A stretch of 51,774 nt of DNA from contig JAGLCY010000066.1 of the NCBI GenBank assembly GCA_023270185.1, positions 1-51,774 of the forward strand, given 5' to 3'. Positions 19,823 to 34,588 of this stretch are shown here, one piece after another (position 1 is the first letter of the stretch; the number at the start of each line of letters is the position of its first letter). This DNA comes from Candidatus Krumholzibacteriia bacterium (GTDB taxonomy: Bacteria > Krumholzibacteriota > Krumholzibacteriia > LZORAL124-64-63). The translations under genes and the position numbers were made by a program. The notes under the pieces are model-generated. The model was given only the letters and a program-made list of their open reading frames with translations. It was not told the DNA's origin and did not search any database.

Positions 19823-20968
19823 ATGAGCGACAGGTTCCTGTTCACCAGCGAATCAGTGACAGAAGGACATCCCGACAAGGTGGCCGATCAAATTTCCGAC
19901 GCCGTGGTGGACGCCATCATGGCCAAGGACCCGGAAGGTCGGGTGGCCTGCGAGACCATGGTCACCACGGGCATGGCCTGCCTGGGTGGGGAAATCACCA
20001 CGAAGACTTATGTCGATATTCCCACGTTGGTGCGCAAGACCATCCGGGACATCGGTTATAATTCCGCGGATTACGGTTTCGATGCCGACACTTGCGCGGT
20101 TCTGACCGCCCTGGACGAACAGTCGCCCGACATCGCGATGGGTGTCAATCCGGGTGGTGCCGGCGATCAAGGTCTGATGTTCGGTTACGCCTGCAGGGAA
20201 ACCGATGTCCTGATGCCCCTGCCCTTGACCATGGCCCACAGGATGGCGCAGCAGCTTGCCAAGGTTCGCAAGGACGGCACCCTGCCCTGGGTGCGGCCTG
20301 ACGGCAAGACCCAGGTGACCTGCCTCTACGAGGACAACAAGCCCGTTGCCATTGACACCGTGGTTGTTTCCACACAGCACGACGAGGACATTTCCCTCGA
20401 GGATCTGCGGGCCGCCATCGACAAGCATGTTATCCGGCCCGTGCTTACAAGGTTCGATGTGGATTACGACGGTTACAAGACACACATCAACCCCACGGGA
20501 CGGTTCGTGGTGGGTGGTCCCCTCGGGGATTGTGGTCTGACAGGGCGCAAGATCATCGTCGATACCTACGGCGGCAGCGCCTGCCACGGCGGTGGCGCCT
20601 TCAGCGGCAAGGATTCCACCAAGGTGGATCGTTCCGGGGCCTACGCCACGCGGCATCTTGCCCGGAATATCGTTGCAGCCGGCCTCGCGGACCGTTGCCA
20701 GGTGCAGGTGGCCTACGCCATCGGTGTGGCGGAGCCGGTTTCGATCAATGTCGATTGTTACGGCACCGGCCAGGTGCCTGACGAGCAGATTACGGCGGCG
20801 GTTCGCAAGGTTGCGGACATGACTCCTCAGGGAATCATTTCCCGCCTCAAACTGCGTGAACCGGTTTTTCTGAAGACCGCGGCCTACGGGCATTTCGGCC
20901 GGGACGACGTCCAGTTCTCCTGGGAAAAGGAAGACCTGGTGGACGCCTTGAAGAATGCCGTCGGCTGA
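19823..20968 (+). CDS. metK: S-adenosylmethionine synthetase
   Basis: Makes S-adenosylmethionine from methionine and ATP. 381 residues, the standard size. Signature motifs [12 protein letters not shown] and [16 protein letters not shown] are both intact, as is the N-terminal [17 protein letters not shown] block. The ATG has an AAGGAA box. The 60-nt upstream gap holds only a short GC-rich hairpin (CGGGG/CCCCG), too little for a recognisable SAM riboswitch. It is the last gene of the long plus-strand run. Confidence 0.98.
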
Positions 20969-20984
20969 TCGTTTCGATTAATTT

Positions 20985-21022
20985 AAAAAAAAGGCGGGGC
21001 CTAGTAGGCTCCGCCTTTTTTA
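20985..21022. terminator. Strong bidirectional intrinsic terminator after metK
   Basis: An A8 run, AAGGCGGGGCC (20991-21001), loop TAGTA, GGCTCCGCCTT (21007-21017) and a T-run. One G-T wobble in the 11-bp stem. The A- and T-runs on both sides allow termination of metK and of the convergent lipoprotein gene. Confidence 0.88.
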
Positions 21023-21080
21023 ATTCCTTGATCAGACCGCGTCCCGGATTTGCGAATCCATCCTCCGGTGTCAATGCCTT

Positions 21081-21746
21081 TCAGGTACCGGGGGTGACGG
21101 TGAATTTCAAGGTCTGCTTTCTTAAAACCGCCCAGGCCGGATAGAAGACCGAAACATTGACTTCATAATCGCCAGGTATGTCGTACCGGAATTCCGGAGC
21201 CGTGAGTTTGAATTCCGAGGCGGCGTCATCGCCCATTTCCCATTTGAAAACCATTTTCACCGAATCACCGAGTACGGTCGGATAATCGATGTCGCAGGAA
21301 GATGCCATTATATTGAAATGAATGATGTCGTCGGTGGTGACGTTTCCATCAGGGAAGTCCGAGCCGGCCTCCACGACCAGGCTGTCGGGGAAAACGACCA
21401 CCGGAAAGGTGGCGGAGGCCGTTTGACCGTCGGGATCAGTTCCCTTGACAGTGACGGTGTATTCGCCTGGCGTGTGGTAGGTGTGGAAGTCGCGGGTGGT
21501 GGAACCAATGCCCCCGTCGCCGAAATTCCACAGGATTTCCAGGTTGTTGTTCGCCCCGAGGGGGTCGCCCGATTCATTGCCGCCGGACAGGACGGCATAA
21601 CCCTCCACGGCCATGGGCGCGACGCCGCAGGCAGGCGTCACCTGCAAGCGAGTGAAGGCGGGAACGGATTGATCGTCGTCTTTACAACCGGTGGCCACGA
21701 CCAAAATCAACAAGGCCGGCACCAGCAGCATACAGGCGCGTTTCAT
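21081..21746 (-). CDS. PKD-domain lipoprotein
   Basis: Exported lipoprotein of unknown role. 221 residues. The signal peptide ends in a lipobox (VATGC, Cys near residue 21) followed by KDDD; acidic residues after the Cys can influence sorting. Two immunoglobulin-like PKD modules follow. The first has WNFGDGG and HTYHTPGEYTVTVKGTDPDG (about residues 70-110). The second is more degenerate with FKWEMGDD and YDIPGDYEVNVSV (about 165-205). PKD folds usually mediate surface protein-protein or carbohydrate contacts. It stands alone between two terminators. Confidence 0.85.
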   Translation of the reverse strand: MKRACMLLVPALLILVVATGCKDDDQSVPAFTRLQVTPACGVAPMAVEGYAVLSGGNESGDPLGANNNLEILWNFGDGGIGSTTRDFHTYHTPGEYTVTVKGTDPDGQTASATFPVVVFPDSLVVEAGSDFPDGNVTTDDIIHFNIMASSCDIDYPTVLGDSVKMVFKWEMGDDAASEFKLTAPEFRYDIPGDYEVNVSVFYPAWAVLRKQTLKFTVTPGT

Positions 21747-21790
21747 GTGTGGATATTCTCCCCGTGGGGTGACTTAGGATCTAACTCGCA

Positions 21791-21815
21791 GAAAAACACC
21801 GGAACCCCGTTCCGG
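21791..21815 (-). terminator. Intrinsic terminator after lptG
   Basis: On the minus strand CCGGAAC-GGG-GTTCCGG (21815-21799) is a perfect 7-bp hairpin followed by TGTTTTTC. It ends the lptF-lptG message and separates it from the downstream lipoprotein gene. Confidence 0.72.
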
Positions 21816-21912
21816 GCTCTACCTGCCTGGTCGCATCAATTTATGAAGCTAGGACAGCCCAGGCAAGGAGTCCAGTAAAATCAGTTGTTCCCGGCATGAC
21901 CGAAAACAGGTG

Positions 21913-22986
21913 TCAGCGCCGGGCCCGCACGAACATAATGACGAAAATAAAGGCGTAAAGGACATTTCCGGCCCAGGCCGCGGGAATCGGGGGGAGTGTT
22001 CCGTTGTGACCCAGGGCTCTGCCGAAATTCATGAACAAATAGTAAACGAAGCTCACCAGCAGGGTATAACCGAAGCCCGAGGCGATGGTGGTTTTTCGCG
22101 GACCCGAAGCGAGGATAATTCCCATCAGCACCACGATCAGGTTGACCAGTGGGAAAGCGAAATTGAACTGGATATCAACCAGGCCGGTGGTTGGGTCGCC
22201 GCCGCTGTGCCGAATCAGCTGGACGTGGTCCCGAAGCTGCCGGATGTTCATGTCCTCCTGCCGGATACGTTCCCTGTAGAAGCTTTTGGGTGAGACCTCC
22301 AGGTCGCGAGCCGTGAGACGTTCAAAAACCACGGTCTTCTCATTGTCCCCATCGAAAATGCGTCGCGTGCCGTTGATCAGCGTCCAGTGGGCGCCGTCCC
22401 ATTCGGCGCGAGTCGCATCGATTCTTTCGGTGATGATGGCGCCTTCGTGACTGAGGATCCTGAGTCCGGTGAGGATACCGGTGTTGGGGTCGAATTTGTG
22501 GGCGTAGTAAAACCGTCCGTCGCTGGCGGTCAGGGCAATATGCTGGGTGGGACGGATCCGGTTGGGATTGCCGTGGATTTCCACTTCCCAAACCTGATTC
22601 CTTCTGACATTAGCTTCCGGCAGGACATATTCGCGCCAAGCCAGGGAGAACACGGTTACCAGAAGTGAAATGACGATCAGGGGGCGGGTAACCTTCATCA
22701 GCGACCAACCGGAGGCGAACAGGGCGGTCAGTTCGAGATATCTGGCCATGGTGCCTACCGTGAACAGGGTGGCCATCAGCATGGCGATGGGCAGCACCGT
22801 GTCGACGATCCAAACGGCCTTGAAGGAATAGTAGCGCAGGATCTGCCAGGCGTTGGCGTCGTTGTCCACGAAGCTTCCCATGTGGTCCAGCACGTCGATG
22901 AGCGTGAACAGGATCAGGGCCCCGACCATGGTGAAACTCAGGTTGCGGAAGAAGGTGGCCAGCAGATGACGGTGAATTATGGACAT
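21913..22986 (-). CDS. lptG: LPS export permease LptG-like (YjgP/YjgQ family)
   Basis: Inner-membrane half-transporter that pairs with LptF and LptB to extract LPS. About 357 residues, the usual size. Transmembrane segments lie near 15-35, 55-80 and 95-115 and again in the last 100 residues, around a periplasmic jellyroll domain. The LAT..F.VGTMARYLELTALFASGWSL segment corresponds to the conserved coupling region. The ATG at 22986 shares a base with the lptF stop; a TTG at 22989 is an alternative. F versus G is assigned by order and length only. Confidence 0.9.
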   Translation of the reverse strand: MSIIHRHLLATFFRNLSFTMVGALILFTLIDVLDHMGSFVDNDANAWQILRYYSFKAVWIVDTVLPIAMLMATLFTVGTMARYLELTALFASGWSLMKVTRPLIVISLLVTVFSLAWREYVLPEANVRRNQVWEVEIHGNPNRIRPTQHIALTASDGRFYYAHKFDPNTGILTGLRILSHEGAIITERIDATRAEWDGAHWTLINGTRRIFDGDNEKTVVFERLTARDLEVSPKSFYRERIRQEDMNIRQLRDHVQLIRHSGGDPTTGLVDIQFNFAFPLVNLIVVLMGIILASGPRKTTIASGFGYTLLVSFVYYLFMNFGRALGHNGTLPPIPAAWAGNVLYAFIFVIMFVRARR

Positions 22987-24401
22987 CAATCAGGTTCTCC
23001 ACCGACGGACACCGTCTTGTCGGCAACGCGGGGTTTCAGGGTGATGCTCAAAAGAGTGGATTCCCGAACGGCCTTGAAAAACAGGGGAATGCCCACCACC
23101 AGAAGGAAGATGTTCGCGCTCCACATGGCCAGAAACGGGTCCAGCCTGCCGCGGTCGGAAAACTTCTCGCCTCCCACCAGGAACAGGTAATACACCAGGT
23201 ACACGCCAAGGGCAAGGCTTACGCTGATGCCTTTGCCGCTTCTCGACGATGTCACGGCCATGGGTACGCCGATCAGGGCAAATACGATGCAGGCGAAGGG
23301 AATGGCGAATTTCTTGTGAAATTCCACCAGATACCGATTCTCCCTGGTCTGGTAGCTGTCCCTGATCTTTTCCTGGTACCGCGACTGTTCGACGACCCGG
23401 TCCACTTTCAACCTCGTGGCCCGAAATTTTCCTTCCAGGAAAGTTTTTCGTTCGGGATCCTCCGGTGGTGCCGGGTTGTTGCCTAGAATTTCAGTCCGAT
23501 GCTCCGGTTGGAGCAGCTTCCACTGCCACTTCAGCATGGTTTCGGCCAAACCGCCCACGTTGTCCAGGACCTTGTCCTGTCTCTCCTGTTCCTTACCCGC
23601 GGTGGTCCACAGGTCTTTCAGGTTCATCTCACGATCACCCCGGGTCTGCCGGTCCGAATCATGGAAATCACGTTCCACGTTTTCCACGTAGAGGTTGTGT
23701 TGGCCGAAACGTGTGACCTGGTATTTGTCCGGGGATTTCTTGTCGGGTCGTTCGTGGATTTCCCCGTCGTGCAATTCGATGAGCACCGAGTCGGTCTCAT
23801 GGTCAGGGGCAATGCGGCCCCAAGCAGCGATCGTAACCCGTGGAGAAAGGTCTCCGGGATTTTCCTTTTCGATAATGGTGACATCCTCGATCCGGCCCGT
23901 GACGTCATCCTTTTTGCTTACGTAGATGGTCGTCCGGTCGCTCATATCCGTGAATTGCTGGGCGCGGATCTCCAGCATGGGTTTCTTACGGTTGATGTCG
24001 TACAAGAGGTTGGCCAGCTTATGGTTGGACTCCGGAAAGACGAAATGGTTGTAGGCGGTCAGGCCGAGGGCGATGACACCGGCTCCGAACAGGAGGGGAC
24101 GAAGCACCGTCCACAGGCTGATGCCGCTGGCTTTCATCGCTGTAATTTCATGATCGGCAGCAAGTTGTCCGACGCTCATGAGGATGGCTATCAAGACCGC
24201 CATTGGTACGGATAATGCAAATGTGTGTCCGAGACTGAGAACCAGGACCTCGGTTGCCATGAGGAATGGAACACCTTTGCTGACAAACAGATCGACGTAC
24301 CTGAAGAGCACGTCTATCATCAGCAGAAAGGTGATGACGAACCAGCCGAAAAAGAAGGGACCGGCTGCTGTGGCCAGCAAGTGTTTGTATATCAGGTACA
24401 T
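22986..24401 (-). CDS. lptF: LPS export permease LptF-like with long periplasmic insertion
   Basis: Partner of LptG in the LPS exporter. 471 residues, about 100 more than Escherichia coli LptF. Three N-terminal membrane segments (about 13-35, 55-78, 100-118) are followed by a periplasmic domain, then three more starting at FAIPFACIVFALIGVPMAV (about 364-383). The coupling helix region is ADHEITAMKASGISLWTVLRP-like. The extra length is a charged, probably helical stretch between about residues 262 and 355. First gene of a two-gene operon divergent from sprA. Confidence 0.9.
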   Translation of the reverse strand: MYLIYKHLLATAAGPFFFGWFVITFLLMIDVLFRYVDLFVSKGVPFLMATEVLVLSLGHTFALSVPMAVLIAILMSVGQLAADHEITAMKASGISLWTVLRPLLFGAGVIALGLTAYNHFVFPESNHKLANLLYDINRKKPMLEIRAQQFTDMSDRTTIYVSKKDDVTGRIEDVTIIEKENPGDLSPRVTIAAWGRIAPDHETDSVLIELHDGEIHERPDKKSPDKYQVTRFGQHNLYVENVERDFHDSDRQTRGDREMNLKDLWTTAGKEQERQDKVLDNVGGLAETMLKWQWKLLQPEHRTEILGNNPAPPEDPERKTFLEGKFRATRLKVDRVVEQSRYQEKIRDSYQTRENRYLVEFHKKFAIPFACIVFALIGVPMAVTSSRSGKGISVSLALGVYLVYYLFLVGGEKFSDRGRLDPFLAMWSANIFLLVVGIPLFFKAVRESTLLSITLKPRVADKTVSVGGEPD

Positions 24402-24669
24402 AGAACCTTGTTGCCCCTGTCGGTTTCTCCTTCGAATCCCGGCTGAACCTCAGCAACGGAATATCCGGAGGCCTTGGCCGAAAGGATTGATTCCAGGGTT
24501 TCATCTCTGAACTTCGTCCAGAACGTTGATTTGCTGAGCTGAAACCGGCCATCATCGATGGTCGGTGTATGGCCAGTCCCGTGGTCAGCATGACCATTTT
24601 CGGGGACGATCGCCAAACGGGCCAGCATTAAATCAGGCATCCAACCTTTGGAGACAGGGATTGTCGCGA

Positions 24670-27600
24670 ATGAGTCTGGGGAACACCGGAAAGCCGGTCT
24701 TACGCTCTGCAAGGGGCGTTGACTTCGGCTGTTCTCGTGCTCACCCTCGCGACGGTTTGCCTTCCCTGTTCCGGTCATTCGTTTTCCTGTTCGCTCTGGC
24801 CGCTGGTCTGGCCATCCTTCCGGTGGGGATCGCCCAAGCTGATCCCAACTATGAGGGCACCATCCTTTACGGGCTGGATCCGGTGATCAGGACAACGGAA
24901 GATCCTCGCCTGTTGGGTGTCGACCGTTTGGTGTTGCTCCGCCGACTCGAAGGTCTGGGCATCGATCCGCTCAGGTATCCCGATCGGAAACCTGGCCTTG
25001 ATGCCATGTTCCGCCATCATTTCCACTCCCGGTCCAACGTCGATCTTGATCGCCGTGAACACCTTGTCGAGTACAACGGCAACCTGGGCCTGATGAGCGA
25101 GTTCCAATACCCCTCATTCTTCTTTCTGTTCCCGTCGGCTGAAACATTGCCGGGTGGGTTTGCTTATTACCCCCCCCGGCCCACGAGCGATCCTGTAGTC
25201 AGGCTTTTCGTGGACGACCTTAAATCCGGCGTCCGCCGCCGGCATGCGGTGGGACAGGTTTTCGTCAAGATCGAGGCCCTGGATGTTGCCGGTCATGGCC
25301 GTAGGACCGACCAGGATACCGGACTGATCAACCTTACCATCCCCATCAAACTTCCCCGCACTCTGGAGAAGATCATCGGTCGGGGAGAAAAAACAAAGAT
25401 CAAGATCACCGGGCGGGAGCGCATCGCCATCTCCGGGGAAAGCACGGTTGTCAATCCGTTCACTCCCAACGAAAGAGTGTCCAGCCAGTCCCTTTTTCCC
25501 TCCCTGGACATGGAACAGGAGCTACAGGTCAATCTGTCCGGAGTGATCGGCGAAAAAATCATCGTCGAGGTGGACCATAACAGCGCCCAGGTGGGTCCCG
25601 ACGCCACCAAAATCAAGTTGATGTATCAGGGCCTCGAGGATGAAATCATCAAGACCATCGAGACCGGTGACGTGGGCCTGACCCTGCCGGGCAGTCAGCT
25701 GCTCGGATACAGCTCCAACAAGTCCGGTCTGTTCGGTCTCAAGGTGACTGGTCAGGTGGGCCGGGCCGATTTCACCATGGTCGCTTCGAAACAGAAGGCT
25801 GAAACATCTTCCAAGACCTTCAACGCCGTCGGCGGTCAGATTTCCGACAACGTCATAAATTCCTCGGAGTACCTGAATCACCGTTTCTTCAAACTGGATC
25901 TTCCCCTGCAGGAAGTTCCCAACGGCCGGTTCCAGGGCGACCAGATCCTGTTGGAAACCATCAAGATCTTCAGGCTGATGCCCGGGCAACCCGTCGGTAG
26001 TGATATCACCAACGTGGCTGTCTACGTCGACTCTTTGGGTTTCCGAAACTGGGGGAACATCGATTTCAACAAACCCCACCTGTTCGGGCGCCGCTGGCGG
26101 GAAATAGAAAGTGGTTCCTGGGATCCCCTGCGTGACGCGGATGGTCATTTGATAGCAGTGGATCTTCGGTCCCAGATGTCGGATGAGGATGCTTTGGCGG
26201 TGATCTACGATATCAAGTTGGCCGACGGGAGTATCGTACAGGTGGGCGATGTCCCGGGGCAGGATGGTCAGACGCAGATCGTCGAGGGCGGTGACGGAAC
26301 ATATTACCGGATGAAGCTCCTGAAGGCTCCGGTGTCCGCCCAGGAAACCTGGTCTTTCCAGTATGTTCTGCGGAACATCTATTCCCTGGGTGGGGCGAAC
26401 ATCGACAATGCCACTTTCGATTTGCGGATCGAACGCAACGAGCCCGGCACCAACCAGCCCCAGCAGGACGAGAACGGCCTGGATTACATCCGCATTTTCG
26501 GACTGGACCGGGACGATCCCCAGCGCAACGGGTACCCCGACGGTCTGGTCGACAAGTGGGATCCCTTCATCATCGATCTGCAGAAGGGTTTGCTGAAATT
26601 CCCCCTGGATTTTCCGATGCCGTTCGCTCCCGGGGGAAGACCTTTTGGTCGTGAGGGTGAAGCGGACGCAATTGCCGACTCGGTCTTCTCAGCCTACGCC
26701 GACACTTCGGCCTTCGTGTGGGATCCTTCCTTCCTGAAGGACCACCAGACCTGGCAACTTTATCACCCGAGTATTTATCCCTCGGAATACAACCAGCACA
26801 CATCGTTCCGGATCATCGCCACCCACGCTTCGGCCTCGAGCAATTTCAACCTGGGGGCTTCCAACATCGAGGAGGGTTCCGAGACGGTCAATCTCGACGG
26901 GGCCACACTGACCAGGGGTGTGGATTATGAAATCGATTACACCTTCGGGGAGGTCAAGCTGATCGGTTCGGCGGCCGACAAGCTGACCCCAGACAGCAAG
27001 ATCGCGGTCAACTACCAGTTCGCGCCGTTTTTCGGTGGCGGCAACAAGAGCCTGATGGGCTTGAACATCGGTTACGATCTGGGTCAGAGCAGCAAGATGT
27101 CCACAACCTGGCTCTACGAGACCGAAAACATCGTCGGGGAAAAGGCCAAACTGGGTGAGGAACCGAGTAAGAACCTGGTCGGCAACCTGAACCTGCAACA
27201 TACTTTCCGTCCCTATTTCCTGACCCACGTGGCCAACTTCATCAGCCGCCGCAACACCGAACGTGAAAGCACGATCCAGTTCAACGGCGAAACGGCGGTC
27301 AGTCTGCCAAACTCCAATACGATGGGTAAGGTTTATCTCGAGGATTTCGAAGGGGTGGACGCTTCGGACACCATCACCCTGACCCGGATCGGCTGGTCCT
27401 GGGCGAGTGCCCCGTACCTGGGCTCCAGGTATCTTGCCGACAATCCGGACTCGCGGAGCTTTGACCCCGAGGATCGGGTCGGGACGGTTCGCTGGTTCCT
27501 GCCCAAGGAAAGGACCCTGCGAAGGTACCTGAATCCCGATTTGATCAACCAGGAGAGGGATGAAACCCAGCCGTCCATGGACATGTTCATCAGAGCCGAC

Positions 27601-30600
27601 GACGGGTCCTGGGACCCGGAGGATTGGGGCGGCATCATGCGGAGCATCAGTCGGACCGGCCTGGATCTGTCCAAGGCGCAGTTTGTCGAGATCTGGGTCA
27701 ACGACGGGGTGGCGGATCTCAACCAGCGGCGAGGCAAATTGCATATCGATTTCGGCTACATTGATGAGGATGGTTTCTGGCCGGTGGATGTCGATGGTAA
27801 TATCGAGACTGGAACCCGCCAATTGGAGGATGGAATCGTGGAAGGGAGTCCCCGCGATGATGTCTTTTACGCTCCTGATGAGGATATCGGACTTGACGGG
27901 AACGAATTCGGACCGCAGAAGTTCGACGCGAACTTCGAAATCAACGGGGACAGCCCGTACCCCGGCATCAATGGAACCGCGCGGAACTCACGGGAGGACG
28001 ACGAGGATCTCAACGGTGACGACCAACTGAACAGGGACAACGGTTTTTTCACCGCGACCATCGATTTGAAGGACACTAAACCCCTGGTGGACGTGGTGTA
28101 CGACTATGGCGACGTTCAGGATCTGGTGGCCCAGAACATTTCCTGGCGCAAATACCGCATTCCCCTGACTGCCGTGGATACCGTCAGCGTGGGAACTGCG
28201 GCCAACCTTCGCGCTGTAACCCACGCAAGAATCTGGTACGAAGACATCAATCCGGGTGGAAGGACAGCACTCACTCTTCAGATGTCGGAATTCAAATTCC
28301 TCGGCAGCCGGTGGGAACGTGAGGGAATCCGCCGTGTCGACGGGGAGAAGCTTCTCACCCGACCCGAACTCCTGCCGAACGAGGAGTTTTTCCTGGGGGA
28401 GGTGAACAACAAGGAAAATCCCGACTACCATCCGCCCTTCGCTGTCATCGAGAACAATAATATTCCCGAGAAGGAACAGTCCCTGGTCCTGAATTTCACG
28501 AACATCGAACAGGGTCATATGGTGCGCGCCAGCAAGCAGGTGTCCGCGCGGGGTGATGACTACACCCGTTACAGCGACCTGTCCTGGTACTGGTACAATC
28601 CCAGCCACGCGACGGCCGATCTGGATCTGTTCTTCCGGGTGGGCGCCGATACCCTGAACTACTACGAGGTGACCTACCGGTTCAGTGATTCACCCAGCAA
28701 GACCGGATGGCACAACATGAATATCAGCGTGGCGGAACTATCCAACGCGAAAAACGGGACCGTTGACGAGAACGGGCACATCCACTCGACAGTGGTGGAC
28801 AGGCGGAGCAGGGATGTCTACAGGGTCCGGGTGGTGGGAAGGCCCGATCTGCGCCTGGTGAAACGGTATTATTTCGGATTCATGAACAACAACCTGAGCC
28901 AGGAGGCGTCTGGTTACTTCTACCTGAACGATGTGCTCCTCGAGGGGGTCAAGAGGGACATGGGCATGGCCCAGCGGGCGGGCTTGCGTCTGAACATGGC
29001 GGACGTGATCAATGTGGATTTCGACTGGAAACACACGGATGATGAATTCCACGGGCTCAATACCAAGTCGGGCTCCGGCATTGATACCGAGGACTGGAAT
29101 GTCGCCGGGAACCTGGCTGTCGAGGATTTCATTCCCCTGTTGGGTTTCAGGCTGCCGGTGACGGGCAGCAGGCGCCAGATGATCAATCGCCCCAAGTACG
29201 AGACCCACAGCGACATTGAAATCCTCGACGAAGACGTCAGGAATTCCCTGTCGACGATCGATACGCAGGAGAGGTTCTCATCTCGATTGAGCCATTTGCC
29301 GTCCAAGTCCGCCCTTCTCCGATACATGGTTGATCCCTGGTCCCTGCAGATCGCCGGATCCCGTCGCAGAATGAACGGGCCCCTTGAACAACGCCGTGAC
29401 AAGAGCCTGCAGGGATCCTTGAATTTTGATCTGCGTATTCCCGGGGAGTACAATCTCGGAGCCTATCCGCTGGTTGGGGCCATTCCTATCGTGAAGGGCC
29501 TGTCCATCGTGCCCAAGAAAGTGGCGTTTGTAGCCAGTTTTTCAGCTACCCACAACCTCTCCGTCACCATCGACGACAACGGAGTGGTCACGCCCCGGCC
29601 GGTCAATCAGGCCCGACCCGCCAAACTCAACGGCAGCATCGATTACCAACCGTTGCGGATTTTGGACTTGAGCGTATCGGCCAATTCAGACAGGGATCTG
29701 TTGCGTGAATTGAAATGGCATGGTGTGAACATCGGCGAGGAGAACAAGCGAGCCTACGATCTACGCATGACGATCCTCGTACCCCAGGCCCGGGACCTGC
29801 CTTCGACAAAAATCCTGGCTCCGATCCGCACCCTGGCCCGGGGTGCTTCGAAATTGCGTCCCAGCATCCAGTTCAACGGAAGTTTTGCCGATGCCCACGA
29901 TCCCGGTCTGCGCCAGCCCGGGGACCCTGATGACATTCGAAGTGTCAGTAATGGGGGTCGTTGGGAATTCCGAATGGATGTGCCCCTGGGGGATGCCTTC
30001 GGGGCGGTGTTTCCGGAGAAGAAATATTCCCAGGCGGAACGGGACAAATTGATCGCTGAACAACGAAGTCGGGAACGGCAGAACCTCCGCGCGCCAGGAC
30101 ACCAGGGTGATCAACCGCGGCCCCCGGGATCCGGGGAGTCTCCGGATAACCCGGACCCACCGGGAAATCAGGATCCCCAGGGTCGTAGCACGTCCCAGGA
30201 TGATGATTTGGAGGGATTGACCCCCGAAGAGGTCCAGCGACGGGAACAGGAGCGTTTGCTGGAGGAAGCTGAAAGGCAAATGGAACAGGACAGGGAACAG
30301 GGGCTGGTTAAGGAAGAGGAGTCCGTTGCCGAGGGTGGTGGCGGGTTCAATCCCTTATCCATCTTAAATCCCATTCTCAACACACTCCGTAATTCAACGC
30401 CCGTGAAGGTCGTTTACACGGATCAGAATTCGAGCAGTTACTCTCGGCTTCTGGATACGGCACCCTTCTGGTACAAGACGGGCCTGGTCAACGAACTCGA
30501 TGTTGAGGATTCCCAATATTCGTCCTACGGTTCCGACAACAAGGTTAATCTGACCTTGTCCACCAATACCCGAATCACCAAAGACCTTGCACTCGATTTA

Positions 30601-31284
30601 AAATACGCCGAGGGTTCTACGCTGAGAGACCAGATCGGGTCGGTGACCAGGAGTGAAAAACGGGATTGGCCGGATGTTCAATTTTCTCTTTCCGGTATCG
30701 AAAAATGGAGGATTTTCGGCGGCAACAGCCAGGATGTGGATTCAGGCTGGTTCCGTTCCTCCAACTTCAACATCAGTTACAAGCAATCCAAGACGGTGAA
30801 CAATATTACCGACCGTTCCTACAACCCGAATACCACCCTGGCCATCACTCCGCGTTGGACGTTCAACTTCCACAGCGGAATGACCGCCACCGTCAATGCG
30901 AGCTTCAATAATTCCGAAGCGATCACCAACGGCGTTTCGACAATCAGCAACAAGATGCGCTTGGGTCTGCAGATGAGGCATTCCTTCAATGCCCAGACAT
31001 TCCTGGCCAAGCTGGGTCTTTACCAGCCGGGCAGCAGCCAGAGCGTGACCATGGATGTGGACCTATCATACCAGACGGACCGTAATGAACGAATCACCCC
31101 CGGCCTGGCGGCAGCCAAGCCGACCGGGACGAACAGGTACAGCATGGCGCCCAGGTTCAGTTACCAGATCACCAAAAACCTGAGTGGTGCGGTGCGATTC
31201 TCCTTCGGCCGGAGCGAGAACCTTGCTTCCGGGCAAACCACAACCTCCCTCGGGATGGGATTGGAGGCCACCTTTGTTTTCTAG
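24670..31284 (+). CDS. sprA: SprA-family outer-membrane translocon (type 9 secretion)
   Basis: Homologue of SprA/Sov, the giant beta-barrel that forms the type 9 secretion channel in Bacteroidota. About 2204 residues (characterised proteins are about 2400). The N-terminus has a hydrophobic signal segment (about 31-57), then the SprA N-terminal region with LSGVIGEKIIVEVDHNS, KIKLMYQGLEDEIIKTIE and LLGYSSNKSGLFGLKVTGQ. Near residue 890 it has the characteristic YLEDFEG...GWSWASAP block. Amphipathic strands continue to the end (GLEATFVF). A Pro/Glu/Gln-rich stretch of about 100 residues near 1790-1890 is unusual. The start is uncertain: ATG 24670 gives a long n-region, and in-frame TTG 24757 would give a more normal signal peptide. 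It is divergent from lptF and overlaps the next gene by 11 nt. Confidence 0.88.
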   Translation: MSLGNTGKPVLRSARGVDFGCSRAHPRDGLPSLFRSFVFLFALAAGLAILPVGIAQADPNYEGTILYGLDPVIRTTEDPRLLGVDRLVLLRRLEGLGIDPLRYPDRKPGLDAMFRHHFHSRSNVDLDRREHLVEYNGNLGLMSEFQYPSFFFLFPSAETLPGGFAYYPPRPTSDPVVRLFVDDLKSGVRRRHAVGQVFVKIEALDVAGHGRRTDQDTGLINLTIPIKLPRTLEKIIGRGEKTKIKITGRERIAISGESTVVNPFTPNERVSSQSLFPSLDMEQELQVNLSGVIGEKIIVEVDHNSAQVGPDATKIKLMYQGLEDEIIKTIETGDVGLTLPGSQLLGYSSNKSGLFGLKVTGQVGRADFTMVASKQKAETSSKTFNAVGGQISDNVINSSEYLNHRFFKLDLPLQEVPNGRFQGDQILLETIKIFRLMPGQPVGSDITNVAVYVDSLGFRNWGNIDFNKPHLFGRRWREIESGSWDPLRDADGHLIAVDLRSQMSDEDALAVIYDIKLADGSIVQVGDVPGQDGQTQIVEGGDGTYYRMKLLKAPVSAQETWSFQYVLRNIYSLGGANIDNATFDLRIERNEPGTNQPQQDENGLDYIRIFGLDRDDPQRNGYPDGLVDKWDPFIIDLQKGLLKFPLDFPMPFAPGGRPFGREGEADAIADSVFSAYADTSAFVWDPSFLKDHQTWQLYHPSIYPSEYNQHTSFRIIATHASASSNFNLGASNIEEGSETVNLDGATLTRGVDYEIDYTFGEVKLIGSAADKLTPDSKIAVNYQFAPFFGGGNKSLMGLNIGYDLGQSSKMSTTWLYETENIVGEKAKLGEEPSKNLVGNLNLQHTFRPYFLTHVANFISRRNTERESTIQFNGETAVSLPNSNTMGKVYLEDFEGVDASDTITLTRIGWSWASAPYLGSRYLADNPDSRSFDPEDRVGTVRWFLPKERTLRRYLNPDLINQERDETQPSMDMFIRADDGSWDPEDWGGIMRSISRTGLDLSKAQFVEIWVNDGVADLNQRRGKLHIDFGYIDEDGFWPVDVDGNIETGTRQLEDGIVEGSPRDDVFYAPDEDIGLDGNEFGPQKFDANFEINGDSPYPGINGTARNSREDDEDLNGDDQLNRDNGFFTATIDLKDTKPLVDVVYDYGDVQDLVAQNISWRKYRIPLTAVDTVSVGTAANLRAVTHARIWYEDINPGGRTALTLQMSEFKFLGSRWEREGIRRVDGEKLLTRPELLPNEEFFLGEVNNKENPDYHPPFAVIENNNIPEKEQSLVLNFTNIEQGHMVRASKQVSARGDDYTRYSDLSWYWYNPSHATADLDLFFRVGADTLNYYEVTYRFSDSPSKTGWHNMNISVAELSNAKNGTVDENGHIHSTVVDRRSRDVYRVRVVGRPDLRLVKRYYFGFMNNNLSQEASGYFYLNDVLLEGVKRDMGMAQRAGLRLNMADVINVDFDWKHTDDEFHGLNTKSGSGIDTEDWNVAGNLAVEDFIPLLGFRLPVTGSRRQMINRPKYETHSDIEILDEDVRNSLSTIDTQERFSSRLSHLPSKSALLRYMVDPWSLQIAGSRRRMNGPLEQRRDKSLQGSLNFDLRIPGEYNLGAYPLVGAIPIVKGLSIVPKKVAFVASFSATHNLSVTIDDNGVVTPRPVNQARPAKLNGSIDYQPLRILDLSVSANSDRDLLRELKWHGVNIGEENKRAYDLRMTILVPQARDLPSTKILAPIRTLARGASKLRPSIQFNGSFADAHDPGLRQPGDPDDIRSVSNGGRWEFRMDVPLGDAFGAVFPEKKYSQAERDKLIAEQRSRERQNLRAPGHQGDQPRPPGSGESPDNPDPPGNQDPQGRSTSQDDDLEGLTPEEVQRREQERLLEEAERQMEQDREQGLVKEEESVAEGGGGFNPLSILNPILNTLRNSTPVKVVYTDQNSSSYSRLLDTAPFWYKTGLVNELDVEDSQYSSYGSDNKVNLTLSTNTRITKDLALDLKYAEGSTLRDQIGSVTRSEKRDWPDVQFSLSGIEKWRIFGGNSQDVDSGWFRSSNFNISYKQSKTVNNITDRSYNPNTTLAITPRWTFNFHSGMTATVNASFNNSEAITNGVSTISNKMRLGLQMRHSFNAQTFLAKLGLYQPGSSQSVTMDVDLSYQTDRNERITPGLAAAKPTGTNRYSMAPRFSYQITKNLSGAVRFSFGRSENLASGQTTTSLGMGLEATFVF

Positions 31285-32254
31285 CAGGGTATTTCATGAA
31301 CGGATCCGGAAGGATTTTTTCCGGAGACTGTTTCCTGTTCTCTTCTCGGTAGTTCTGGGTGGTTTCCCGGCGTTTTTTGCCTCCGGTGGGGAGCCAGTGC
31401 CGCTGCCGGATTTTTCCGGTGTCCGGACCATGGAACTTCTCACGGCACAGTGTGATCTGGGAACGCGTATCCCTGGATCCGAGGGTAATCGCCAACTGAG
31501 GGAGATGATTCTTGATCTGGCCCGGAAACATGGATTCACGACCCAGGTCCTTTGCTTCGAAGCTACCGATCCGATGACCGACCAACCGGTCCAGGTTTGC
31601 AACATCATCGTTTCCTCTGGGCCGGAGGAAGGCCAGCGGCTTTGGCTGGGGGCGCATTACGACACGCGGCCGGTCTGTGATCGGGATCCTGACCCTGAGT
31701 TGCGGTCAACGCCCCTGACCGGCGCGAATGATGGAGCCAGCGGTGTGGCGGTTCTGCTCCATCTCATGGAAATTCTGGGTGCTAACCCGCCGCCGCAGGG
31801 GGTCGATTTCCTGTTCTTCGACGGGGAAGATTCTGGTCTGGCGGGGGATCCGAGCGGGTTCTGTCTGGGAAGTCGACAACTGGCCGCGACTTGCCGTGAT
31901 TTCGGGAATCCCTTGTCCCAGGGAACCCCACGCGGCCTCATCGTCCTGGACATGGTGGGCAAGAAGAACCTTCAAATCCCCATGGAAGCCTATTCGCTGG
32001 TGAATGCCCCGGAGTGGACCGAAACGGTTTTCGACCGGGCTGCGCAACTGGGATTGGCCGCCTTTGTTCCGCTGCAGGGGCCTGGCGTCTACGACGATCA
32101 CGTGCCTTTTCTGGAAATGGGGATCCCCGCGGTGGATTTGATCGATTTCGATTTCCCCCAGTGGCACACGACAGGCGACACACCGGAGATCTGTTCCGCC
32201 GTCAGCCTGGCCGAAGTCGGACGACTGATGCTGGACCTTATTTACAACCCCTGA
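31274..32254 (+). CDS. M28-family glutaminyl-peptide cyclotransferase-like protein
   Basis: Probable exported zinc enzyme that cyclises N-terminal Gln to pyroglutamate; an M28 aminopeptidase is the main alternative. About 326 residues. A TTG start at 31274 is chosen because a perfect GGAGG ends 6 nt before it, inside the end of sprA; it yields a basic n-region and hydrophobic core (about 15-38). Metal and active-site blocks are LGAHYDTRPV, GANDGASGVAVLLHLME, FFDGEDSG, LDMVGKK, YDDHVPFLEMG and FPQWHTTGDTPE. The DGEDSG and the WHTTGDTPE block resemble glutaminyl cyclases more than aminopeptidases. Overlap with sprA suggests translational coupling and a shared task. Confidence 0.8.
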   Translation: MFSSRVFHERIRKDFFRRLFPVLFSVVLGGFPAFFASGGEPVPLPDFSGVRTMELLTAQCDLGTRIPGSEGNRQLREMILDLARKHGFTTQVLCFEATDPMTDQPVQVCNIIVSSGPEEGQRLWLGAHYDTRPVCDRDPDPELRSTPLTGANDGASGVAVLLHLMEILGANPPPQGVDFLFFDGEDSGLAGDPSGFCLGSRQLAATCRDFGNPLSQGTPRGLIVLDMVGKKNLQIPMEAYSLVNAPEWTETVFDRAAQLGLAAFVPLQGPGVYDDHVPFLEMGIPAVDLIDFDFPQWHTTGDTPEICSAVSLAEVGRLMLDLIYNP

Positions 32255-32366
32255 CCGCGACGGTCATTGCGGGGATGCAATCGGAGCTAAATTGCCGCTC
32301 CGGGCGGCCGAAACAATAACCAGTTACGTTTTGTTTTTTTCCCGGAATTCTAGGAGGAGCGGGGTA

Positions 32367-32966
32367 ATGATCACCACCTGCACCGAATGCCAGGCGCGAT
32401 ATCAACTGGATGCTGAGAAAATCCCCCCTCGGGTGATCAAGGTCCGATGCCCCTCATGCGGGGGAGTATTCAGCCTTGATGGCAGCCTTGCCAAAAATCA
32501 GGCCCAGAAAGAGGAAACCCAGCCTCAGGTCAAACAGCCAGCGGTTCCCGAGCCGGCGGCAACGGTGCCTGCGACCCCCGAACCTGTCGCCACGGTTCCT
32601 GCGACCCCTGAGCCCGTAGCCACGGCCCCTGCGACCCCCGAGCCCGTAGCTACAGTGGATGCAGCCCCCAAAAAATCCTCAGCCAGCGTTGCCGTTATGG
32701 ATCGCCCGGCCCCGTCCAGTTCACGCCGGAGGCGCAGTAAAGAGGAAATGTTGGCGCGCGCTCTGGTTTCCGACATCATGGTCTACAATCAGGACCTCTA
32801 TGATCGGGCCAAGGCTGAGGGGAACCTTCTTGAGGCCCTGGGATCCGAAATCAAGAAGTCCTGGGAGCTTTACAAGGAAAAGGTGACACCGGAAGTTGCC
32901 AACAGCACCAATCACTTCCGGGATGCCCTGAATGAAATCCTGGCTGACGGAGATAAACTTTTCTGA
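32367..32966 (+). CDS. Zinc-ribbon (MJ0042-type) protein with proline-rich repeats
   Basis: Function unknown. 199 residues from ATG 32367, which follows an AGGAGGAGCGGGG ribosome binding site. Residues 5-31 form a CxxC...CxxC zinc ribbon of the MJ0042 type (CTECQARY..., VRCPSCGGVF). Residues 61-96 are an Ala/Pro/Thr/Glu-Val decapeptide repeat. Residues 120-199 are a basic then helical domain (SKEEMLARALVSDIMVYNQDLYD). In myxobacterial-type genomes similar zinc ribbons head regulatory or gliding-related proteins, but no partner is evident here. A strong terminator follows. Confidence 0.75.
   Translation: MITTCTECQARYQLDAEKIPPRVIKVRCPSCGGVFSLDGSLAKNQAQKEETQPQVKQPAVPEPAATVPATPEPVATVPATPEPVATAPATPEPVATVDAAPKKSSASVAVMDRPAPSSSRRRRSKEEMLARALVSDIMVYNQDLYDRAKAEGNLLEALGSEIKKSWELYKEKVTPEVANSTNHFRDALNEILADGDKLF
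32547..32654 (+). repeat. In-frame 30-bp tandem repeats
   Basis: Three near-identical 30-bp units plus a partial first copy encode the decapeptide VPATPEPVAT (third copy APATPEPVAT). They lie inside the zinc-ribbon gene and form its disordered linker. Such repeats can change copy number by slippage without breaking the frame. Confidence 0.85.
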
Positions 32967-33047: not shown

Positions 33048-33488
33048 TTAACTCGCGCCCTTGTCGCGGCTGATCTCGGTCAGGATTTCGTCGATCTGCT
33101 GACGAATCCGGACATTGTGATCGGGTTCGAACAGCGCTTGTTTTACCCGTCCCTTGTCATCCTTTTTGACGTATCTGAGGGATTGCAGGTCCTCCATCGA
33201 CATTAGGATGTCCTTGCTCACTCTGACTTCGACCGCAAGGCCTTCCTGATTGGCGCCGGGGTTGTGATAGGGATGCATTCCGTTGCCCCAACCGTGGACC
33301 ACCATCGAACAGAGAAGAGCTCGAAAGGTGTTTTGTCCCTTGACGGTTTCAAGGTCGAAACTTCCACCCACCCGGTCGGTCACGCTGTCGATGACCGCTG
33401 AGAGCTTGTGGATGATATCTTCTTCGACTTCGATTTGTAGCAGGCGGCCGAACATTGTTGTCAGGATTTTGTCGGTATTGGTGGTCAT
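33048..33488 (-). CDS. Uncharacterised 146-aa protein
   Basis: I do not recognise a family. The protein is soluble, with no signal peptide. The N-terminal half is helical (ILTTMFGRLLQIEVEEDIIHKLSAVID). A central motif reads VVHGWGNGMHPYHNPGAN, rich in His and Gly and possibly metal- or ligand-binding. The C-terminal part is charged and helical (RIRQQIDEILTEISRDKG). It converges with the zinc-ribbon gene and is divergent from the MglA-like gene, so the 251-nt upstream gap is shared between two promoters. Confidence 0.7.
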   Translation of the reverse strand: MTTNTDKILTTMFGRLLQIEVEEDIIHKLSAVIDSVTDRVGGSFDLETVKGQNTFRALLCSMVVHGWGNGMHPYHNPGANQEGLAVEVRVSKDILMSMEDLQSLRYVKKDDKGRVKQALFEPDHNVRIRQQIDEILTEISRDKGAS

Positions 33489-33739: not shown

Positions 33740-34588
33740 TTGGCTGAGGAAATGATCACTTCGCAGAAGACTTGCCGTCTACTGTATTACGGACCCGCCG
33801 AGTCGGGTAAGCGGGCCAATCTGAGGCATATCCATCAGTCCATTCCCCCCGAGCACCTGTTGGCTCTGGCCAACGAGGATCCGGAGCGCCAGATCGCTTT
33901 CCGGGTCACTCATGGAAATGACGGGGACTGGCAGGTTCTTGTGCAAGCGGTGGATTCGGGCCAGGAACATTATCGGGCAGCGGCTACGCCCGAACGCGCT
34001 CCTTTCGACGGTATCGTGTTCGTGGTGGATTCCCGGCTGGAACAACTGGACCAGAGCCTGGCTGCCTTCGAGTCCCTGAAAACCTACCTTGATACATATG
34101 GCCTGGACCTGACCGAGGTTCCGGTCGTGATCCAGTACAACAACCGTGATAAATCCGATATCCTGCCTGTGGACAGGATGGAAAGTCTGCTCAATCCCTG
34201 GGGTCTTCTCTCTTTCCCCGCCAACGCGGTCAAGGGAGAGGGTGTCAGGGAGACACTGAAATCGGTGCTGGGTCTGACGGTCACCCATCTCAACGACAAG
34301 CCCGAGGACTCGACCCGTTCCACGGAGTTCGAAATCGCTGTTTCCCAGGACAACTCGGCCACGGCGACGGATATGGAAAGCGATAAAAGTGGGCTTGGCA
34401 TAGATTACGGTCCTCCCATCCCCGGGACGGAGATCCAGGATTCGACCAAAGCTCTCAGCGATGCCATCTTCGAGGAATTGCGACCGCCCGTGGTCATTCC
34501 CGTGAAGATTCCCAGGCGTCTGTTTTCGGGCGATGGGCCCATCAAAATCCTGTTGGAAATCGAAATCGACGACAGCTCGACCTTCTAA
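33740..34588 (+). CDS. MglA-like small GTPase-fold protein with degenerate P-loop
   Basis: Resembles the MglA/Ras-like bacterial GTPases that set cell polarity or motility. 282 residues, longer than MglA (about 195) because of a roughly 90-residue C-terminal extension ending in an acidic tail. The P-loop region reads YYGPAESGKRANLRHIH (residues 16-32), with Arg in place of the essential Ser/Thr after GK. A DSGQE segment near residues 75-79 could be switch II. QYNNRDKSD replaces the usual QYNKRDL specificity loop. Nucleotide binding may therefore be altered or lost. TTG 33740 has AAAGGA 7 nt upstream; ATG 33752 is an alternative. No MglB/roadblock partner is adjacent. Confidence 0.75.
   Translation: MAEEMITSQKTCRLLYYGPAESGKRANLRHIHQSIPPEHLLALANEDPERQIAFRVTHGNDGDWQVLVQAVDSGQEHYRAAATPERAPFDGIVFVVDSRLEQLDQSLAAFESLKTYLDTYGLDLTEVPVVIQYNNRDKSDILPVDRMESLLNPWGLLSFPANAVKGEGVRETLKSVLGLTVTHLNDKPEDSTRSTEFEIAVSQDNSATATDMESDKSGLGIDYGPPIPGTEIQDSTKALSDAIFEELRPPVVIPVKIPRRLFSGDGPIKILLEIEIDDSSTF

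Follow-up and report, generated by a model that had tools for sequence, protein, structure and literature searches.

The contig JAGLCY010000066.1 of a Candidatus Krumholzibacteriia bacterium (assembly GCA_023270185.1), analyzed here as a window of 51,774 nucleotides, carries a gene for a homologue of SprA (Sov), the giant outer-membrane translocon of the type 9 secretion system (T9SS). From its relatives and companion proteins we consider it likely that Krumholzibacteriia as a class possess a type 9-like secretion system with SprA as its translocon, the Gld motor, the ring and the bridge being absent or unrecognizable. An earlier note on the letters of the window had suspected a type 9-like route in a phylum other than Bacteroidota, possibly with different partners. 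The host is indeed of another phylum, PorU, a PorV-family protein and cargo sorting domains accompany SprA, and the partners do appear to differ, in that GldL, GldM and GldN were not detected, GldK did not pass its cut-off and PorW/SprE did not rise above noise.

The sprA frame is uninterrupted up to its stop codon at 31284 and encodes 2204 amino acids if it begins at the ATG at 24670, or 2239 if it begins at an upstream GTG at 24565. A signal peptide is predicted to end between LPVGIAQA and DPNYEG, and the last residue is Phe. The SprA blocks IIVEVDHNS, LEDEIIKTIE, YLEDFEG and GWSWASAP lie at residues 297, 322, 889 and 908, where the earlier note had placed them. The open reading frame (ORF) it had assigned to SprA scored 464.8 bits against TIGR04189 (surface_SprA; cut-off 200) in four matching stretches and 63.3 bits against PF14349 (cut-off 27), and a phmmer search of the Protein Data Bank (PDB) with it returned the SprA of Flavobacterium johnsoniae alone (6h3i, E 2.8e-32). 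A class profile built from 15 members matched the same chain co-linearly with an E value of 5.4e-136 over residues 169-1913 of 2403, and covered residues 73-1922 of the SprA of Parabacteroides distasonis; the likeness to SprA over most of the length, for which a profile check had been proposed, is thus borne out. Judged by these profile matches the ORF encodes a true SprA/Sov homologue, and its family membership is firm. Further partial matches to the SprA profile, in frames of 350-430 amino acids and separate from the main sprA gene, occur at G001:C150, G001:C211, G002:C190, G022:C55 and G035:C1:1540369; these are possible fragments or paralogues.

TIGR04189 finds SprA in all 38 relatives searched, which represent seven families of the class and include single-contig genomes, and in 36 of these the score is above the cut-off. 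The gene is intact in those families examined on long contigs. The host assembly is a fragmented metagenome (402 contigs, 90% complete, 3.4% estimated contamination), from which it might be argued that the contig comes from a member of the Bacteroidota and was misbinned. Against this, other Krumholzibacteriia carry a SprA that is 77-80% identical, in the same gene order on a longer contig, and the window SprA is only about 23% identical to that of P. distasonis. Because SprA is present throughout the class, contamination is practically excluded.

PorU of the host genome scored 461.5 bits against NF033707 (cut-off 420). Among 18 genomes it was detected in every one and exceeded the cut-off in 15, and alignment with P. 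distasonis PorU reveals that the catalytic His (GHG) and Cys (SC/TC) are retained. The next gene after porU, in an order also seen in P. distasonis, belongs to the porV family, and its product scored 179.5 bits against the PorV/PorQ family NF033709 (cut-off 90) and 51 bits against PF19572 (cut-off 27); a PorV-family protein above the family cut-off is found in 18/18 genomes. Matches to the type A sorting domain number 47 in the host genome at E<=0.001 and 66 at 0.01; all 18 relatives possess such domains (18-141 each), and none scored above the cut-off in 14 control genomes. On host contigs picked for holding matches there are 35 sorting-domain proteins, and in 33 of them the domain forms the very C-terminal end of the chain; most have a signal peptide, and Lys or Arg is the last residue in 34. 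As the sequences themselves establish, SprA, PorU, PorV-family and sorting-domain proteins coexist in these bacteria, and the porU-porV operon is conserved. Two more PorU-like genes, oppositely oriented and separated by 7 kb, were noticed at G029:C867:10527-12722 and 19833-22010, with scores of 274 and 290 bits; one of them has an in-frame TGA.

Like the T9SS of Bacteroidota, then, this set comprises a SprA related over most of its length, a PorU with catalytic His and Cys, adjacent porU and porV genes, and type A C-terminal domains on Sec-exported proteins. In the Bacteroidota model cargo attaches through its sorting domain to loops of PorV at the lateral gap of SprA, an input of energy pulls PorV and cargo off, and PorU then processes the cargo (PMC10994853). 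The energy passes from GldLM through a hub to SprE (PMC8986121, PMC8754138, PMC10994853); the GldLM proton motor powers both type 9 secretion and gliding, and its deletion leaves cargo stalled on the translocon (PMC8986121, PMC10994853). If the proteins of Krumholzibacteriia work together in a comparable order, cargo bearing a C-terminal type A sorting domain would cross the inner membrane via Sec and would be recognized by the PorV-family shuttle docked at SprA; it would then go through SprA and be processed by PorU at the cell surface. Energy and bridging would have to be supplied by other proteins, because GldL/M, GldK/N and SprE/PorW are absent or beyond recognition; some of this work could fall to the class-conserved genes of the porU-porV operon.

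The genome search for T9SS parts proposed in the earlier note therefore succeeded for PorU, the PorV family and the sorting domains but not for GldL, GldM, GldN, GldK or SprE/PorW. With profiles run without a positive-control genome, full-length GldM reached at best 11.8 bits, with 0/58 genomes above the cut-off; GldM domain 1 and GldL each exceeded theirs in 0/18 genomes (best for GldL 17 bits), and GldN gave nothing in 18 genomes. GldK yielded generic FGE-domain matches, none above the cut-off in 38 genomes and none at all in the host genome. PorW/SprE gave TPR-level matches only, none of them above the cut-off, as it also did in 12 of the 14 controls. In the P. distasonis record that was examined end to end, no GldKLMN is annotated. 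Unlike Bacteroidota, Krumholzibacteriia thus have no detectable GldL, GldM or GldN, and GldK and SprE/PorW stay at noise level. The outer-membrane half of the system resembles a T9SS, and the status of a full T9SS fails, as far as profile scores can tell, on the motor, ring and bridge features that were tested.

Two ways of accounting for the silent motor profiles have to be compared. We propose a T9SS-type route whose drive is either different or greatly diverged. It is possible, at slightly less than even odds, that there is no GldLM motor and that SprA, PorV and PorU are powered or bridged by a class-specific module (perhaps the DUF5683 pair, the NHL protein and the protein of about 1150 residues described below) or by an envelope motor such as TolQR/ExbBD. 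A standard T9SS in which GldKLMN and SprE/PorW exist but have diverged beyond the reach of Bacteroidota-trained profiles, with a diverged GldLM proton motor driving transport, seems to us somewhat doubtful. Generic TPR and FGE-domain proteins are present and could include a distant SprE or GldK, and the lack of a positive control in the motor searches also leans that way. SprA, PorU and PorV score strongly, however, against GldM, GldL and GldN values that are low or nil, so that all three of the latter would have to be unrecognizable while the outer-membrane parts were retained, which needs a sharp difference in rate. SprA, PorU and PorV score 473, 461 and 105 bits over profiles of 2319, 1095 and 367 positions, or 0.2-0.4 bits per position; at that divergence GldL, GldN and GldM would score approximately 50-200 bits, and the values obtained favor their absence. 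That SprA is a relic or now serves some other purpose, such as lipid or single-substrate export, with the sorting domains belonging to another pathway, is quite improbable. The missing motor and the linkage of sprA to lptF/lptG across the class would agree with it, and it is opposed by the intact catalytic residues of PorU, the adjacent PorV, the dozens of terminal type A domains per genome and the intact sprA on long contigs.

Several observations weigh against a type 9-like system with SprA as the translocon and no Gld motor. AlphaFold models of SprA residues 260-1440 and 1381-2239, computed with three close sequences, are unusable as evidence for or against a single 36-strand outer-membrane barrel with a lateral opening (mean predicted local distance difference test score, pLDDT, 26.5 and 36.6); eight long strands appear in the last 170 or so residues only, at pLDDT of about 48-74. 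The PorV-family protein scores 105 bits against the PorV equivalog NF033710, below its cut-off of 250, and passes that of the broad PorV/PorQ family. The host assembly is incomplete and fragmented, but relatives with a completeness of up to 100% give the same picture. Lacking the positive-control genome, loss of GldL, GldM and GldN is indistinguishable from extreme divergence, to which we give the rather low probability of the diverged-motor alternative.

Abby et al. found the T9SS in no phylum other than Bacteroidetes (PMC4793230). It has been suggested in Chlorobiota, Ignavibacteriota, Rhodothermota, Gemmatimonadetes, Cloacimonadota and Fibrobacterota (PMC11285876); Fibrobacter sorting domains have been described (PMC6851124). 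In the text consulted of a Cloacimonadota paper cited for the T9SS, the system is named among the references only. The bare occurrence of such a system outside Bacteroidota is less surprising than the earlier note had assumed, several phyla of the Fibrobacteres-Chlorobi-Bacteroidetes (FCB) group having already been suggested (PMC11285876), and Krumholzibacteriia share with them T9SS-type proteins beyond Bacteroidota proper. We found no joint mention of Krumholzibacteriota and type IX secretion in the open-access papers searched, and the phylum is not in the list of PMC11285876. The T9SS would thus be extended to a phylum in which that literature does not mention it, with conserved new candidate partners named. 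If a whole class retains the translocon, its sortase and shuttle, and cargo with sorting tags by the dozen, all with no motor, the core of the machine would be separable from its drive, and how transport through SprA is powered would become testable by comparison.

The candidate partners come from the porU-porV operon, which reads porU, porV, an M6-protease-like cargo protein bearing a sorting domain, two paralogues that hhalign assigns to the DUF5683 family with a probability of 99.5%, an NHL-repeat protein and a protein of approximately 1150 residues, with ligA nearby. The order is conserved in several families, some members being occasionally absent from the gene calls. In Bacteroidota the arrangement is otherwise: in Krumholzibacteriia porU and porV stand in another operon, and sprA lies beside lptFG and a glutaminyl cyclase gene. 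The protein of about 1150 residues has orthologues in loci L056, L100, L103-L108, L110 and L111. Profile comparison reveals that it has one motif of about 68 residues (GSE.V.LDG..L.RG.DY.IDY) in common with SprA; beyond this motif, profile searches found no relative in the PDB and no named family. A TIGR04189 match recurs in most family genomes, and the protein was considered as a short SprA; we do not regard it as one, only the motif being shared. Because of their class-wide linkage to porU-porV, this protein, the two DUF5683 paralogues and the NHL-repeat protein are, from gene order, the best new candidate partners. The coordinates of these and of the sprA neighbors are collected in Table 1.

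Table 1. Features of the sprA region of the window and of the porU-porV operon.
Feature	Position	Strand	Evidence or remarks
LptG-family lipopolysaccharide (LPS)-export permease	21913..22989	-	PF03739 247 bits; TIGR04408 204 bits, below 240 cut-off
LptF-family LPS-export permease, divergent from sprA	22986..24401	-	PF03739 281 bits; TIGR04407 218 bits, slightly below 230 cut-off
sprA/sov, giant outer-membrane translocon of type 9-like system	24670..31284	+	TIGR04189, PF14349, PDB SprA
M28-type glutaminyl cyclase	31184..32254	+	PF04389 98 bits; class profile vs PDB
MglA-like small GTPase with C-terminal extension	33740-34588	+	PDB MglA matches, E 1e-21
Predicted outer-membrane protein of ~1150 residues, end of porU-porV operon	L048 2898-6386		host contig C113; last residue Phe
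Two neighboring DUF5683-family paralogues	L048 7420-9345		same operon as porU-porV; both with aromatic last residue

Around sprA, the flanking genes are those that had been named from the sequence, namely LptF/LptG-family permeases on one side and on the other an M28 protein that, among solved structures, is nearest to bacterial glutaminyl cyclases. The order lptF/lptG (divergent), sprA, glutaminyl cyclase is repeated in several families, lptF adjoining sprA in most of the class loci examined, and genes resembling rimP, nusA and infB (names read from the N-terminal sequences) come next outside the window's own family. The earlier note had treated the lack of gliding genes nearby as distinctive, and this did not hold up: in the one P. 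distasonis record, sprA is placed between ruvA and a TonB-dependent receptor gene and has no gld genes beside it, so the missing neighbors carry little weight.

The cyclase gene probably has its true start close to 31270, where it still overlaps the 3' end of sprA. A cyclase gene follows sprA in the loci of most families examined, though it was not seen in locus L049 of family f2. In a comparison with PDB entries the cyclase class profile matched the Bacteroidota exopeptidase-fold structure 3gux (E 7.6e-75) and the glutamine cyclotransferases 6qql, 7cje and 6qro (E <= 1.4e-71); as groups, bacteroidal exopeptidase-fold and Porphyromonas/Tannerella-type cyclotransferase structures lie at 1e-75 to 1e-68, and YwaD-type aminopeptidases reach only 1e-18. 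The alignment shows conserved positions for Asp, Glu, Trp and His. The M28 enzyme thus has its nearest counterparts among bacteroidal and Porphyromonas/Tannerella-type structures, a feature in common with Bacteroidota. For almost every Bacteroidetes species, Gln follows the signal peptide in >48% of signal peptidase I substrates, the so-called Q-rule (PMC5837995), whereas a simple home-made predictor applied to the host genome placed Gln first in 10 of 50 predicted substrates (20%), against 2-8% at the following positions in these proteins. On this comparison of sequences the cyclase is common to Krumholzibacteriia and Bacteroidota, and the Q-rule is not.

The MglA-like GTPase of Table 1 was entertained as a link to gliding and dropped, as it is a conserved neighbor of sprA in the window's own family only. 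Beside its gene, at 32292-32966 on the forward strand, is a protein with an MJ0042-type zinc ribbon, weakly like the N-terminus of GltJ, and proline-rich repeats. At 33048-33488 on the reverse strand a small protein is encoded that matches nothing in Pfam, NCBIfam or PDB and is 91% identical in relatives.

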